Positions 12,157 to 19,910 of a DNA stretch of 46,741 bases are shown here, in pieces. The stretch spans positions 1 to 46,741 of the forward strand of contig JASJCX010000016.1 of NCBI GenBank assembly GCA_030065255.1, given 5' to 3'. A program made the translations under genes and the position numbers. The DNA comes from Calothrix sp. MO_167.B42. GTDB taxonomy: Bacteria; Cyanobacteriota; Cyanobacteriia; Cyanobacteriales; Nostocaceae. A model generated the notes under the pieces. It saw only the letters and a list, made by a program, of their open reading frames with translations. It was not told the origin of the DNA and ran no database searches. Each line of letters starts with the position of its first letter. Positions within the stretch are counted from its first letter, which is position 1.

Positions 12157-15100
12157 TTAATTAACGCTGATTATAATACCCTCTAGAGTCCGCAGTAATT
12201 CCTGTTCATTATAGGGTTTAGAGAAGTAAGCTTGGGCTCCCAATTGCATTGCTAATTGCCGATGCTTTTCACTACTGCGAGAGGTTAACATGGCAACTGG
12301 TATATTTTTCAGTTCTTCATTGGATTTGACGCGTCCTAAAAAGCCATAACCATCAACCCGAGGCATCTCAATGTCGCAAATAACTGCTTGTACCCTTAAA
12401 CCACTTTCTAGTTTTTCCAGAGCATCTTGCCCATCTTTGGCTTGTTCTACCTGATATCCCCCTTTTTCTAAGGTGAGGGCTAAAAAACGGCGCACATTAA
12501 TTGAATCATCAATAATCAGAATGCTACCTTTGCTTTTCCTGGATATTTCTACTGGTTGATTCTGAGCTGGTGACAGGAATACGCTTTTTAATCTTGCCGA
12601 TGGTAATTGATTTTCTTTGGGAGTATCCTTGTGATTAGCAATCCAATATAATAGCTCGTTAATATTTACCAAGGGTACAACCCGCCCATCACCGAGAATG
12701 ATACAATTACTGAAACTTTTGGGTAGGGGAATATTACCTTCCACATGACGAATTGCTACTTCCTGCTCTCCCCAACAACGCTCCACAACTGCTGCTAATA
12801 AATTACTTCCACTGTTAACAATCAATACACTATTAGCATTAATTGCTGCTGGTGTTTCCAATTCATAGTTGTCATACCGGGGACAATTAAACTCAAAATA
12901 CTGCCCTAATCTAATTAATGGCAACATAGTACCTTTGTAGTTGAGCATTTCGCTGTTTGCCATGGGAAATATTAAATCGTTTTGGAGTAAAAACATTTCT
13001 TCCACCACATCGGTAGGAAATGCCAATAACATCCGGTTGGTTTCCACTAGTAATATTTTGGCAACGGAAAGGGTAAATGGTACTAGTAAGTTAAAGGTAG
13101 TTCCACGGCCTAATTCTGTATCTACTTTGATATCTCCCCGCACTCGTTTGAGGTTGTTGCGGACCACATCCATACCTACTCCCCGCCCAGATAATGCTGT
13201 GACTTGCTCACAGGTACTAAATCCTGGTTCAAAAATTAGGGATAATAATTCTTCATCGCTGGCATTACTAATTAGATTATGATCCAAACCCATGGCAATG
13301 GCCCGGTTGCGAATTTTATCTAGGGAAACGCCTTGCCCATCATCGCTGACTTTGATAATGATCCGATTGTTTTGCTGTGATGCTTGAATGGTAATTAATC
13401 CCTGTTCTGGTTTACCCAGACTACGGCGGATATCTGGTGTTTCAATGCCATGATCGAAAGCGTTACGCAACAGATGCATCAAGGGATCGGTTAGTGATTC
13501 GAGGATGTTGCGTTCAATTAGGGTATTAGCTCCTTCTACCTTGAGTTGGACGTTTTTACCATATTCTACGCTTAAGTCCCGCAAAGCTCTGGGGAAGCGA
13601 TCCACTAAGTCTGATAGGGGTCGCATTCTCACCCTCGTCAGCTTACTTTGTAATTGTTTTGATGTTTTGTTGAATTTACGGGCAATTTTATCGGTATCAT
13701 TCAGGCTGACTTGCAAATCTGTTGACACTTCCTGTACCTGAACGATGGTTTCCATCACATCCTGGGACAGTAGACTTAATTCGCTATAGCGATCCATTTC
13801 TAAGGCATCAAATCCCACATTCATGCTTTGTAGGGATTCGTTATTTGCCAACCCTAGCTCAGAAGAATGAACTTCCCCATTGGTAGCGATCGCTGGGGAT
13901 GAAGTGCTGCTAGGCTGTAAATTATGGGTGGCTATTTTGTCATATCCAGTGCGTAGTTTTTGATTTTCTCGCTCCAAAGTTTGTATTCTCTGGGAGAGAT
14001 TGCCCATTAATTTACGCAATCTTTCTAGTTGTAGGTTTAACCCATTGCGCTGGATAATTATCTCTCCAAATAAATCATTAATTCCTTCCAATTCTTTGCT
14101 GGAAACTCTGACCGTATTTTCCCCTGCTTCACTGCGATGATTAGCTGGAATTGGGTCAATTTTTGGCTCTAAATATTGGTGTTCTGTATGGTTTAATTCC
14201 TCTAAACTGACGGTTTGTGGCACTGCTTCGGATAGGATATTTTCATCGGCAAAGGCTGCTGACAATGCCTGGAAATTAGTTGCCAAAATCTCATCAATAT
14301 CACTACCTACCAAAGTCTCATCGGATACTTCCGTTTCTCGATCGGGTGTTGTCGTCTCATCAGTTGATGAAGATAGGGAAGGGAAATTAGTGGATTCTAA
14401 AGCAATATCATCTGGGGAAATTTGTCTGGGTAAATTATCCAACTGATTGGTTAACACCAGAGCTTGCGATCGCCTCCACGCATTCAGTGCTGCTTGGGCA
14501 ATGTTTGGAATATTATCTGCCGTGGCAGTTTCTAAGTGGTTGGTAACTGATTGACAAAGTTCGGTAAAGGCCTGCAACTGCAACATTTCTCCCAAACCAC
14601 CCAACTCCATGGCCATGGTACTTACTTGTTCTTGTAAGTCTGCTCCAAAAGTATCTGCCAATATGGTTTCTAAATGCTGTAAACTTTCTTCCACCTCGGT
14701 TTCAAACAACAGAGGAATAATATCCTGTCCTTCTTCTGGTGAGAGAATAGTTGTGGCATCTTCGGGGGTGGGATCTCCCAAGCGATCGTGCAATTGTGTA
14801 AATACTGGATAACAACAATCTGCCAACCACTGTTGGTCGATAGTATTCCCTTCTGATTGTAAATCTACTATCTGGCGCAGCCAATCAACTCCAGACAGTA
14901 GTAAGCTTTGTAATTGGGTATCCAATTGTAGAGAATTTTTCTGAGTTTTTAAAACCTTAAAACAGTCTTCTAAACGGTGGGATAAATCCGAAAGTTCGCG
15001 AAATCCCATCATTCCCGCCCCACCCTTGATTGAGTGAGCGGCTCGGAGTGCGGCATTAATTTTTTCTAGGTCAATCCGGTTGCTGGAGTTGATTTCTAAT

Positions 15101-15183
15101 AATACGCTTTCTAGGGTATTCAAATAATCCGTTGCTTCTTCCAGGAACTGCATTTGGATTACTGATTCTTTGTCTTGTGACAT
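12157..15183 (-). CDS. CheA-type hybrid histidine kinase with C-terminal REC (HmpE/PilL-like)
   Basis: This 1008-residue protein is the central kinase of a chemosensory cluster. An N-terminal HPt domain has phospho-acceptor H50 in AAHSIKGGAG. A second, degenerate HPt-like helical region without His lies at about 155-245, followed by an acidic linker. The CheA dimerisation helices (about 358-530) lead to the ATPase domain with N-box LLRNAFDHG (571-579), G1 SDDGQG (613-618) and SGRGVGMDVV (665-674). A CheW-like regulatory domain (about 700-850) and a receiver domain (about 886-1005, D892/D893 and phospho-acceptor D937, SKPY) complete it. The same layout occurs in PilL/HmpE/PixL proteins that control type IV pili-driven gliding. 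The gene follows the MCP gene by 61 bp and is the last of its operon. Confidence 0.9.
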   Translation of the reverse strand: MSQDKESVIQMQFLEEATDYLNTLESVLLEINSSNRIDLEKINAALRAAHSIKGGAGMMGFRELSDLSHRLEDCFKVLKTQKNSLQLDTQLQSLLLSGVDWLRQIVDLQSEGNTIDQQWLADCCYPVFTQLHDRLGDPTPEDATTILSPEEGQDIIPLLFETEVEESLQHLETILADTFGADLQEQVSTMAMELGGLGEMLQLQAFTELCQSVTNHLETATADNIPNIAQAALNAWRRSQALVLTNQLDNLPRQISPDDIALESTNFPSLSSSTDETTTPDRETEVSDETLVGSDIDEILATNFQALSAAFADENILSEAVPQTVSLEELNHTEHQYLEPKIDPIPANHRSEAGENTVRVSSKELEGINDLFGEIIIQRNGLNLQLERLRKLMGNLSQRIQTLERENQKLRTGYDKIATHNLQPSSTSSPAIATNGEVHSSELGLANNESLQSMNVGFDALEMDRYSELSLLSQDVMETIVQVQEVSTDLQVSLNDTDKIARKFNKTSKQLQSKLTRVRMRPLSDLVDRFPRALRDLSVEYGKNVQLKVEGANTLIERNILESLTDPLMHLLRNAFDHGIETPDIRRSLGKPEQGLITIQASQQNNRIIIKVSDDGQGVSLDKIRNRAIAMGLDHNLISNASDEELLSLIFEPGFSTCEQVTALSGRGVGMDVVRNNLKRVRGDIKVDTELGRGTTFNLLVPFTLSVAKILLVETNRMLLAFPTDVVEEMFLLQNDLIFPMANSEMLNYKGTMLPLIRLGQYFEFNCPRYDNYELETPAAINANSVLIVNSGSNLLAAVVERCWGEQEVAIRHVEGNIPLPKSFSNCIILGDGRVVPLVNINELLYWIANHKDTPKENQLPSARLKSVFLSPAQNQPVEISRKSKGSILIIDDSINVRRFLALTLEKGGYQVEQAKDGQDALEKLESGLRVQAVICDIEMPRVDGYGFLGRVKSNEELKNIPVAMLTSRSSEKHRQLAMQLGAQAYFSKPYNEQELLRTLEGIIISVN

Positions 15184-15244: not shown

Positions 15245-18055
15245 CTAACTTACTCGAAAGGTACCGACAGTCGCTTGTAACTGTTGAGAAATCTCCACAG
15301 TTTGTTGTAAAGAAGCGGAAACTTGACGGGACGATTCACTACTTCCCTGGGAGGTAGCGGCGATTTCTCTCATCAATTGGCTGACAGTTTGAGCGGTTTG
15401 TGCTTGATATTTGGTGGCGGCGGAAACTGACTGTACAAGGGAATCAATTTGGCGAGAGACTGCAAAAATTTGCTCTAAACTCTGTTTGGTACTATCGACA
15501 ATTTGTGTCCCTTCCACTACTTGGGTGACACCTAATTCCATCGCTTGTACCAAATCGCTGGTTTCTTGTTGAATATTTTCGACAATGCGTTCGATTTCTT
15601 GAGTTGCAGCACCAGAGCGGGTAGCTAATATTCCTACTTCTTCTGCAACTACTGCAAACCCTTCTCCTTCTTCCCCTGCACGGGCGGCTTCAATCCCAGC
15701 ATTAATGGCCAATAAATGGGTTTGCATGGCAATTTCATTAATTAAAGACACAACATGGGTAATTTGCTGGGTTGATTCTCCCAGGCGCTTTACTTTCTTA
15801 GCTGTGTCACCCACTGTTTCTCTTAAGGAGAGGATATTTTGTACAGTCATTTCCATGGCTTGTCCACTGTCTTGAGTGGTGGTGGCAGCTTGATTTGCCA
15901 CTGTAGCAGCTTCTTGGACACTTGACTCCAGGGTAATCATGGAATCATTCATTTGGTCTACTGTATCTAATACCCGATTGATTTCTGTGGTTTGATTCAG
16001 TGCTGATTGTGCCAGTTGGCGAGTGGCTGTTTCGCTAGTTGCTAAGGAATTATTGATCTGAGTGGCTGTTTCTTGAACTTGGGTAACAATGAAACGCAAA
16101 CTTTCGATAATTGAATTAAAAAAGTCAGCTACGGTACCTATTTCTCCCGATGTGATTTCAGCCCTTACTCTTAAGTCGCCGCTAGCTGCTCCTTCTACAT
16201 CATTCAATAAGTCTAAAATTTGTAGTTGCAGTTCTTCTTTTTGTTGCTGCTCTTTTTCCCTTGCTTGCTCTAATTCTTCTAAAACGTTTGCTTGTTCTAA
16301 AGCATAGCCAACTTGAGTGACTAACTGCTTGAATAAGTCTATTTCTCCTTGTTGCCAATCATGGGGAGCTTGGCAATGGTGAACAATCATTAATCCGAGC
16401 AATTCTCCACCATTCATAATTGGTGCAATTAAGTTAGCTTTAACTGCATACTTCTCCAACATTGCCACATAACACTGAGCATTAGGCATTGTCAGCTCTG
16501 TGTAAATGTTAGATATTGCCTGTACCTGTACTCTGCCGTCTTGATAACTTTGAGCATGAAGTTCTTGAAAACAGGGATCGTCAATCACTTCTCCCAGAAT
16601 TGATAAGCAATCTGGTGTGCATGACTCGGCGACTATCTTACCATGCCAATTGTCGGAGTTGAATTGATAAATAACTGCCCGGTCGGCATTGAGTACGTAA
16701 CGAATTTGCTCTACAGATGTGCTGAAAATATCTTCTTTTCTCAGACTTTTGCGAGTCAGTAGGGTCACATCTGTCAAAGACTTTTCCCTTTCTGATTCTA
16801 AATCTCGCTGTTTGATGAGCAACTGTAATTGCTCTGCCATTTGGTTAATATTGTCACCCAAAACACCCAATTCATCTTGGCGATTAATGTGTAAACGGGT
16901 ATTAAAATCCCCTTGGCCAAGTTTTGTCACTGCTTCTGTGGCTTGGAGAATGGGTTTTGTCGCCCTACGGGCAAGCAAGGCTGCAATCGCTCCTACAATT
17001 AATGCTGTTAATCCCGTACCAATGGCAATGGTTAGCAGTAATTCTCTTTTGGATGCAAAGGTATTTTCTTCATTGATGGCAGTTATTACTTTCCATTGTA
17101 AATTAGGGAAATCCTTCAAGGTAGGTATAGGCACATAGCTAACTAATTCTGCTTCTGAATTACTTTCATTATTTACAACAATAGTATGGTTTTGCTGTTT
17201 ATTTGCTAGTTTTGCTAATGGTTTATACTCGTCTGTAATATTCTTGCCTACATATTTGTTTTCCGAACTCAAGAAAATAGTTCCAGAAGCATCTGCCAAA
17301 TGATATTCTTGACCAACTCCAATAAATGCATAATTTTTCAGGACTGGTTCAAGTAGCCCAATAGGCATCCTAGCTCTGATAATGGCATTAGTTGCCCCTG
17401 TATCAGGATTTTTGATTGGTGCTGCTATGTATACGTTTGTCTGCCCTGAGTTTTTGGATTTCATTACCTGGGTAATGTGGGGACGATTTGTTTGCTTTAC
17501 TTTTTGGAAGTAAGAACGATCTTTATAGTTGGGCAGGGTATAACCTGTGGATTGGACAATGGTATCCCCATTGAGATCGAAAATTGCAATGCTGTCATAT
17601 ACCTGATTGACTTCAATAAATTTGTCTAGTATCTCCTGTTTTGTTTGCACATTTATATATCTATTAAAGTTATTGCGAGTCACTATAGGCAGACTTGTCA
17701 AAACTTCAATATCCCCATATCTTTCCGACATAAAAAGCTTGACTTTATCTGCAAAGTCTGTAGCTGCTGCTTCTTGGCGCTGGGATATTTTTTCACTTAA
17801 AGAATCACTGGCTAATTTATCTGCAAAAAATCCTATACCCAAAACAGGTAGGGTACTAATAGCGATGGCAAAAATAGTTGCTTTTGCCTGTAAACCAATC
17901 TTTTTATTAGCTTTAGCTGACCGATGCTGATTAGTACTACCATTTATGTTTCTATGGGATGGTTTTTCAGGAACATTAGTATTTTCTAATAATGATAAAT
18001 TCGGTGAGCTATTTTCGAGCTTATTGCCCTGTGCATCATCTGTTTTGTTGAACAT
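15245..18055 (-). CDS. Methyl-accepting chemotaxis protein with Cache and cyanobacteriochrome-like GAF
   Basis: This 936-residue receptor has a cytoplasmic tail, TM1 (about 58-78), a large external dCache-like sensor (about 80-335), TM2 (about 339-362), HAMP (363-415), a GAF domain (about 430-590), a second HAMP-like linker and the MCP signalling domain. The hairpin tip [20 protein letters not shown] (772-791) is close to the universal one. The GAF has DPCF at 493-496 and C528-Y529, which align with the DXCF motif and chromophore-binding Cys of PixJ-type cyanobacteriochromes, followed by VKANLIAPI (538-546) and [11 protein letters not shown] (554-564). The protein may therefore sense both a periplasmic ligand and light. 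His at 529 is replaced by Tyr. It sits between the CheW and CheA genes, 61 bp from each. Confidence 0.9.
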
Positions 18056-18116: not shown

Positions 18117-18605
18117 TTAATCAACGAGAAGCATGGAAGACTGCACAATTGCTCGCGCATCTAGCACTAACAATATTTCTTGCGTTTGGACAACACACCC
18201 TCTTAAATATGGAACTAAACTAGTTGCTACTTGCCCAATGGGAGAACGAATATCATCAGGCATAAATTTAATCGTACCTTTGACATTATGTACAACTAAA
18301 CCTAATAATATTGATTCGACTTTAATCACGATAATATTAAATTGTCGGCTCCGATAATGGGTCGATTCTAAATTGAGAATCATGGACAAATCAACAGCCC
18401 AAATAATGCGGCTTCGCCAACTCATTAAACCCATAATGCAAGCTGGCATATTAGGCATAGGAGTTATTATTTCCCCTGGTACAACAATTGCTTCTTGGGT
18501 ATGTTTAACAGATAATACAGCAGAGGTTAATGGATTCAGGTAAAAATTAAGATAAGCCTCTCCCTGGGTTTTTACATTATTGTGCGAAGTTTGAGAGCTA
18601 TTCAT
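18117..18605 (-). CDS. CheW-like adaptor (HmpC/PilI-like)
   Basis: The 162-residue protein has the CheW pattern: AYLNFYLNP at the start, a VPGEIITPMPNMPACIMGLM loop that is typical where CheW meets receptor and kinase, then RIIWAVDLSMIL and a C-terminal domain. CheW couples the MCP to CheA in the array. It lies between the PATAN-REC gene (174 bp upstream) and the MCP gene (61 bp downstream). No enzymatic motif is expected or seen. Confidence 0.88.
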   Translation of the reverse strand: MNSSQTSHNNVKTQGEAYLNFYLNPLTSAVLSVKHTQEAIVVPGEIITPMPNMPACIMGLMSWRSRIIWAVDLSMILNLESTHYRSRQFNIIVIKVESILLGLVVHNVKGTIKFMPDDIRSPIGQVATSLVPYLRGCVVQTQEILLVLDARAIVQSSMLLVD

Positions 18606-18779
18606 AAACTATGATGGGGGAACACATTTTGCACAGCAAGTTTAGATGATTAATAAAGAGTTATCGATTAATTTTAAATGTGATATTACATCTTAGCAAG
18701 CAGCTAATAATTATCATATTTATTTCAATCATATATGAGGGTAATAACAGGTTAAAAAAGCGGTATATGTTACATAAAT

Positions 18780-19850
18780 TCATTTGCCGATCATCAAATG
18801 TTTAAATACAATCTTCAATAATTCCGCCTGATTGAATGGTTTAGTCAAATAGCCTGAGGAACGAACCATTTTTGCTTTCGCTTTATCTAAAAACCCTGTT
18901 CTTCCAGTCACCATAATAATAGGAGTATTCTTAAATATTGAATGCCTCCGGAGCAAAGAACATAATTCATAACCATCTAAATTTGGCATTTCCACATCCA
19001 GAAGAATTAGATCTGGTTTATGACGTAGAATTTGCATTAAAGCTTTGACTGGATCGTTAATTGTGATGACAAAAAATGCATTTTCATCTAAAAAGCTTTT
19101 AATAGATTTTAATATAGTCGGACTATCATCTATACAAGCAATAGTATAGAGATGTTCTTCAATTGATGAATTAAATGTTGAATTTTGGTTATAATCAGGA
19201 TGTTCAAAATTTTTCTTTGGTGATGGTGGCACGAGGTGTTGTTGTGTAGATGGAGAGCCATTATTTGTAAATTCTGGTACGGGATTATCCATTGTATTGA
19301 AAGAATAAATATTCTGCTTATTGGTTAATTTTTTTTGGCAATGCTCCACTAATAGTCGTATTTCTAATCGACAAAACTTAGGTAGTCCATCCAATGAGGA
19401 TTCCTGACTAAACTCATATTTACCTAATTTTAAAGCCAGAAAAGATTCTAGAGTCTCTTTAGCTAGTTCATCTATTAAAACTGCTGCTTCAGTTGTATTA
19501 ATATAATCTTGCTTGACTAAATAGCAAATCACACTGTAATCAGTAGGTATTGGAGGCTGCTTATCTGCTGCATTGTTGAATATAAAACCTGCTTGTAACC
19601 AGTCAGAATTATGAAAATTAGGAATATTTTTATTCAGCTTTTGCAAGTAGTATTCAAGCCGCTCAAATAAATCTTTTGAGTGGGAGGCATAAATTAGTTT
19701 ACCTGCTTCTAGATAAATAGACCAAAATTCTGTGTACGTAGTAAATATACGCAATCTACCTGTAGCTCTGCGGCTGGTTAACTGAGCTAAAAGAGATAGA
19801 GGGTATATTTTTTGTAAGAAGCTATGGCTATCTATATGGATTGCACTCAT
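18780..19850 (-). CDS. PatA/PixG-like response regulator (PATAN + REC)
   Basis: I start the gene at ATG 19850, where a purine-rich agggaaaa precedes it (356 residues). The frame stays open to 19910, but the extra 20 residues look non-native. Residues about 8-200 match the PATAN/DUF4388 pattern (SLLAQLTSRRATGRLRI, then YLEAGKLIYA). After a Ser/Pro-rich linker comes a receiver domain with paired acidic residues D241/D242, phospho-acceptor D285 in LLDVEMP, VTGR and TKPF. PATAN-REC proteins such as PixG, PilG-type regulators and HmpA sit at the head of cyanobacterial pilus-motility clusters, as here. No separate CheY-only gene lies between it and CheW. Confidence 0.85.
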   Translation of the reverse strand: MSAIHIDSHSFLQKIYPLSLLAQLTSRRATGRLRIFTTYTEFWSIYLEAGKLIYASHSKDLFERLEYYLQKLNKNIPNFHNSDWLQAGFIFNNAADKQPPIPTDYSVICYLVKQDYINTTEAAVLIDELAKETLESFLALKLGKYEFSQESSLDGLPKFCRLEIRLLVEHCQKKLTNKQNIYSFNTMDNPVPEFTNNGSPSTQQHLVPPSPKKNFEHPDYNQNSTFNSSIEEHLYTIACIDDSPTILKSIKSFLDENAFFVITINDPVKALMQILRHKPDLILLDVEMPNLDGYELCSLLRRHSIFKNTPIIMVTGRTGFLDKAKAKMVRSSGYLTKPFNQAELLKIVFKHLMIGK

Positions 19851-19910
19851 TTTATTTTCCCTGAAGTTAAATAATGTGGAAGGGATATTTAGTTTTAGGC
19901 GACAATTCAA

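Follow-up and report, generated by a model that had tools for sequence, protein, structure and literature searches.

The 46,741-nt stretch of Calothrix sp. MO_167.B42 DNA analysed here (the window) carries a same-strand run of four genes encoding a PatA-type response regulator, CheW, a chemoreceptor (MCP) and a CheA hybrid kinase, separated by gaps of 174, 61 and 61 nt (Table 1). The features of a PixJ-type operon, namely a PatA-type regulator, CheW, a photoreceptor MCP (classed as such from its sequence) and CheA, occur together, and a stand-alone CheY is absent. The chemoreceptor has two hydrophobic segments that flank dCache_1 on both sides, and the dCache_1 region also matches the sensor of sporulation kinase D (4jgo, E 1.5e-5). 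A sequence-only reading of this DNA had placed an external dCache domain and a DXCF-type GAF domain on one chain ahead of a single CheA, which agrees with the Pfam assignments and the operon; its coordinates and residue numbers are correct, the span it marked (16286..16768) corresponding to amino acids 430-590.

Table 1 Features of the chemosensory operon and of its receptor, in window coordinates.
Feature	Position	Strand	Basis or remark
PatA-type response regulator (DUF4388 and receiver)	18780..19910	(-)	Pfam; first gene of the run
174-nt gap, site of the CheY gene of relatives	18606..18779	(-)	Without a CheY frame in the window
CheW	18117..18605	(-)	Pfam; 61 nt before the MCP gene
Chemoreceptor (MCP), 936 aa	15245..18055	(-)	TM1, dCache_1, TM2, HAMP, GAF, MCP signalling domain
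Transmembrane candidate 1, aa 57-79	17819..17887	(-)	Kyte-Doolittle scan
dCache_1, aa 86-325	17081..17800	(-)	Pfam PF02743, E 3.5e-15; predicted outside the plasma membrane
Transmembrane candidate 2, aa 338-363	16967..17044	(-)	Kyte-Doolittle scan
HAMP domain, aa 360-411	16823..16978	(-)	Pfam
GAF domain, cyanobacteriochrome type, aa 441-586	16298..16735	(-)	Pfam, PDB alignments, AlphaFold model
DXCF motif D493-P-C495-F496	16568..16579	(-)	C495 codon 16571-16573; aligned with TePixJ DPCF
Loop with 2-residue insertion, about aa 511-513	16517..16525	(-)	Gives spacing 33; window's genus (Calothrix rhizosoleniae group)
3-residue insertion, about aa 524-526, then C528 and Y529	16469..16486	(-)	Nostocaceae-type clade
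Canonical cysteine C528	16472-16474	(-)	Within QCYV; Y529 next
MCP signalling domain (MCPsignal), aa 747-893	15377..15817	(-)	Pfam
CheA hybrid kinase	12157..15183	(-)	Pfam: Hpt, dimerisation, HATPase, CheW-like, receiver; 61 nt after the MCP gene

The GAF domain matches 53 distinct PDB sequences at E up to 0.01. The best solved match is 6oap (E 2.9e-34), followed here by 3vv4, which we take to be TePixJ (E 2.1e-26), and by the sequence common to 4fof and 4glq (E 2.3e-25); the identities of the remaining PDB chains are likewise our assumption. 3w2z is also among the matches; 4glq is TePixJg and 3w2z is AnPixJg2 (PMC11284453). Alignment of the window sequence, and also of a 53-row profile, places the window DPCF on the DPCF of TePixJ and QCY on its ECH, with the C495-to-C528 stretch longer by five residues, as one 2-residue and one 3-residue insertion. 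The alignment to TePixJ, which had been proposed as a check, therefore puts both cysteines in the expected columns and agrees with the earlier claim that C495 of DPCF and a second cysteine, C528, occupy the bilin positions of PixJ-type domains. In TePixJ, D492 and N535 sit at the bilin and C522 lies on helix alpha-4 (PMC6955287). The window protein retains the pocket residues D493 and N541 and has Tyr529 and Met532 at the positions of TePixJ H523 and Q526. An AlphaFold model of the GAF domain (mean pLDDT 84, pTM 0.81) has C528 (model residue 104) inside helix 102-111, the canonical cysteine of TePixJ being helical as well, and C495 (model residue 71) just ahead of helix 72-79. A third cysteine, C483 (16607-16609), lies 12 residues N-terminal of C495 and is present in four of four genomes of the window's genus; the usual residue at this position in the other dual-Cys homologs is Phe, Leu, Tyr or Trp. 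The window's genome (80% complete) holds three heme oxygenase matches above the cut-off and one PcyA match (346.5 bits vs a curated cut-off of 206), genes that predict a supply of phycocyanobilin in the cell. The same genome gives 28 matches to the GAF domain, 26 of which were aligned, nine with both cysteines. We regard the GAF domain as quite probably a dual-Cys DXCF cyanobacteriochrome within a chemoreceptor, and as a putative bilin-binding domain.

Homologs were sought in 218 genomes of the same family. In 150 of them matches reached E <= 1e-90, some of which fall on paralogs or on receptors that lack the GAF domain; 160 loci reduce to 137 distinct homologs. Both cysteines occur in 72 of these, neither in 55, the DXCF cysteine only in 6 and the canonical one only in 1, with the region missing from 3. 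C495 and C528 are present in 72/72 dual-Cys homologs by definition of the group; the Asp and Pro of the motif are also present in 72/72 and the Phe in 71/72, so the DXCF motif is not a chance occurrence. The spacing of 33 between the cysteines, five above TePixJ, and the Tyr in place of His after C528, both noted from the sequence beforehand, are confirmed, the former as a trait of the window's genus and the latter as a trait of the lineage. The residue after the canonical cysteine is Tyr in 70 of the 72 dual-Cys homologs and in 69 of the 71 dual-Cys rows of the tree described below; the spacing in those 71 rows is 31 in 65, 33 in 4 and 28 in 2. Similarly, among 81 rows made up of the window and the best 80 named loci (of 481 that passed), 62 have both cysteines, with a spacing of 31 (56 times), 33 (4 times) or 28 (2 times). 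The out-group loci L247 and L270 have a spacing of 28 and CH as in TePixJ; the 3-residue insertion and the change from His to Tyr therefore mark the Nostocaceae-type clade, a family name taken from its named members. The four rows with a spacing of 33 are the Calothrix rhizosoleniae group (the window, Calothrix rhizosoleniae SC01, Calothrix sp. MO_167.B12 and MO_192.B10), so the 2 further residues mark the window's genus. CY with a spacing of 28 occurs in four further GAF domains of the window's genome, three of them on one protein (contig C178). The Cys-less homologs L098, L134 and L136 carry 8-10 extra residues at the site of the 2-residue insertion of the window's genus.

The longer loop also bears on the alternative that bilin is bound through C528 while C495, shifted by the loop, forms no second link, giving a photoreceptor without a blue state. 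The five extra residues would fit such a shift, and model confidence is lowest just here (mean pLDDT 60 for residues 71-80, a block that includes C495). However, L158 is the only row to have C528 without C495, and D-P-C is invariant in the 72 dual-Cys homologs across spacings that range from 27 to 33, which makes this alternative unlikely.

A tree was built from 132 of the 137 homologs, one per genome (130 in the family), with the GAF columns excluded; L055 and L057 (no GAF), L178 (partial), L058 (a different, longer protein) and L177 (its genome's second copy) were left out. The 130 family orthologs comprise 69 with both cysteines, 55 with neither, five with the DXCF cysteine only (L054, L169, L170, L175 and L176) and one with the canonical cysteine only (L158). 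One clade of 56 rows holds 54 of the 55 Cys-less rows. Genus g7, which its named members suggest to be Nostoc, contributes 47 rows, of which 45 have neither cysteine and none has both; among the best 80 named loci (of 481 that passed), 20 carry the title Nostoc, 16 with neither cysteine and 4 with both. The tree makes the remaining Cys-less row, L051, a neighbour of the window's genus (SH-aLRT 99), a placement that is unsure because the row is long and oddly composed. The tree requires a minimum of 3 changes at C495 and 5 at C528. Loss events are too few for a coupled loss of the two cysteines to be shown statistically, and a sign test on independent pairs cannot reach significance. Amino-acid binding by the dCache domain was considered and set aside: we take R-x-W-Y to be the amino-acid-binding signature of dCache domains, the window stretch reads D-R-S-Y-F and R180 is present in 78/132 rows, so no dCache ligand is claimed.

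Where the cysteines are gone, the remainder of the pocket changes as well. D493 is present in 72 dual-Cys (n=72) but 45 Cys-less (n=55) homologs, N541 in 70 and 28, and R508 in 67 and 17, respectively; R459, Y463, C561 and W567 are invariant in both groups. With branch lengths fitted domain by domain on one fixed tree, the ratio of branch length in the Cys-less clade to that elsewhere is 0.440 for GAF, 0.205 for dCache and 0.191 for the MCP signalling domain, the sum for elsewhere omitting the end branches of L051, L053, L054, L056, L175 and L176. The rate tests also exclude L131 and L163, two interrupted genes that had been represented only by their longest open piece. Parsimony gives a GAF change, measured against dCache and MCP together, of 1.75 (1.44-2.10) in the Cys-less clade; the corresponding value for the 33-row clade, the largest with both cysteines, is 0.79 (0.66-0.94), with 0.94, 0.66 and 0.52 in parts of it; three small dual-Cys clades give 0.85, 0.88 and 0.92, and a three-row clade that has lost only the canonical cysteine gives 1.12 (0.87-1.41). 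In the main Cys-less clade the pace of GAF evolution, measured against that of the neighbouring domains, is thus roughly doubled, and pocket residues erode. The ratio is also raised, at 1.56 (1.14-2.14), in the 8-row dual-Cys clade that adjoins the Cys-less clade, and relaxation may therefore predate the loss of the cysteines; a neighbouring 3-row dual-Cys clade gives 1.16 (0.80-1.58). The Nostoc GAF domain may have moved to a non-bilin ligand.

Elsewhere the GAF domain is missing altogether. Six genomes (L273-L278) have the operon with a receptor of only about 750-775 aa, whose matches to the window receptor leave out the GAF region largely or entirely; Pfam finds no GAF in 6/6 of these receptors, MCPsignal in 6/6 and dCache_1 in 4/6. 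They may reflect loss of the GAF domain and not its original absence. Such receptors, together with the joint loss of both cysteines in the 56-row clade and in L051, would fit a GAF domain that in the window organism, too, is a non-light-sensing spacer, structural or small-molecule-binding, as proposed for the Nostoc-type orthologs. Against this, both cysteines, D493 and N541 are present in four of four genomes of the window's genus, and the GAF domain there is better conserved than dCache (78-79% vs 59-68%); we consider a spacer role in this organism improbable.

The gene order of the operon is widely shared, PatA-CheW-MCP-CheA being found in 170/178 loci (genomes in two collections counted twice); of the eight exceptions, three have no PatA match, three have no CheA match and two have a different order. 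Of 181 loci tested for a CheY gene in the interval from PatA to CheW, 174 have one; the other seven are L275 and three genomes of the window's genus that are each counted twice. The best CheY match in the window's incomplete genome is 42% identical. A megablast search of the operon against plasmids gave no matches. There is only a very slim chance that the receptor is part of the hmp system of hormogonium motility: relatives share the gene order PatA, CheY, CheW, MCP, CheA, which in hmp presumably begins beside hmpF, but one g7 genome carries both a window-type operon and a separate hmp-like operon (L284), so the operon of the window is very likely not hmp. The CheA of L284 (2031 aa) is 39% identical to the window CheA, vs 70% for the ortholog; its MCP (984 aa) has HAMP, MCPsignal and a weak TPR, with no dCache or GAF found by Pfam, and the visible start of its divergent gene looks, by eye, coiled-coil. 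HmpF homologs often adjoin such systems (PMC12288463). Inspection by eye of the ORF lists of the window and nine relatives found no HmpF coiled-coil gene beside the operon, and on this ground and that of the second, hmp-like operon the hmp identity was dropped. Two-regulator systems of this kind are tied to type IV pili in a review (PMC12288463), and the operon probably steers these pili.

Among characterised receptors, PtxD of Nostoc punctiforme is likewise a cyanobacteriochrome chemoreceptor, of hormogonia, in a cluster with CheA, CheW and CheY homologs (PMC5812497). It has seven GAF domains, whereas the window receptor has one, and a ptx identity was rejected for this reason. A 1641-aa open frame with multiple GAF domains on contig C275 is a better ptx candidate in the window's genome. 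With TePixJ and PixJ1 the receptor shares the DPCF cysteine, a canonical cysteine on the same helix and the fusion of GAF to MCP; it differs from them in its outside dCache domain, in five more inter-cysteine residues and in Tyr and Met in place of H523 and Q526. TePixJ, like PixJ1, presumably lacks an outside dCache domain. The parts given for PixJ1 in PMC5812497 are transmembrane, GAF and MCP. That source also describes a pix cluster that unites a PatA-type (PATAN) regulator, CheW and CheA with the receptor, as here, the window's operon differing in having no CheY gene (PMC5812497). In UirS of Synechocystis, too, one chain bears a cyanobacteriochrome together with a membrane domain that senses a ligand (PMC5812497), but this protein is a sensor kinase with an ethylene-binding domain, and the window protein is a chemoreceptor with dCache. 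A chemoreceptor joining dCache to a cyanobacteriochrome was not found among the papers listed from the literature searched, which mostly excluded subscription journals, and an earlier description is possible; the part of PMC8846402 consulted mentions cyanobacteriochromes and dCache apart from each other. We class the receptor with the PixJ kind, as a variant set apart by its dCache domain, its longer loop and the loss of the light module in relatives.

For a dual-Cys cyanobacteriochrome in this setting, bilin binding, colours, photocycle, signal direction, dCache ligand and pilus output can be inferred along the following lines. C528 would hold phycocyanobilin from the cell's own synthesis, perhaps after isomerisation to phycoviolobilin, and C495 would add reversibly to C10 of the bilin, so that the dark state would absorb blue light and the photoproduct green or teal light. 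A light-driven change in the GAF domain would pass through the long C-terminal helix to the MCP coil and alter the activity of the operon's CheA, and occupancy of dCache would act on the same coil through TM2 and HAMP. CheA would then phosphorylate the PatA-type regulator (in relatives also CheY), steering the type IV pili of motile filaments.

More broadly, though we put the chance at somewhat less than even, the receptors could form an undescribed family of type IV pilus receptors in heterocyst-forming cyanobacteria that read a ligand and blue/green light on one chain, in which the light input was uncoupled about twice by loss of both cysteines and elsewhere by absence of the GAF domain, leaving ligand receptors. 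With the light input lost in Nostoc, common model strains could have hidden such a family. If the GAF domain binds bilin, a single receptor would allow a direct test of how chemical and light cues are summed in a chemosensory array. Related filamentous cyanobacteria offer a natural comparison, their versions of this operon having a dual-Cys, a Cys-less or a GAF-less receptor. The sub-lineage distinguished by the conserved longer loop and by Tyr next to the canonical cysteine has no reported colours in the literature searched.

A set of paralogs (L291-L296, about 1100 aa, with two GAF domains) matches the window receptor from the dCache region through GAF; Pfam reports no dCache in L291. Two genomes of the window's genus have a CheY, 70-71% identical to the query, that adjoins such a paralogous two-GAF receptor. 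The paralogs of the window's genus (L291, 5818-9111; L292, 6691-10053; L296, 953-4255) carry the cysteine pair in neither GAF domain, and L294 and L295 have DPCL and CY in the second.
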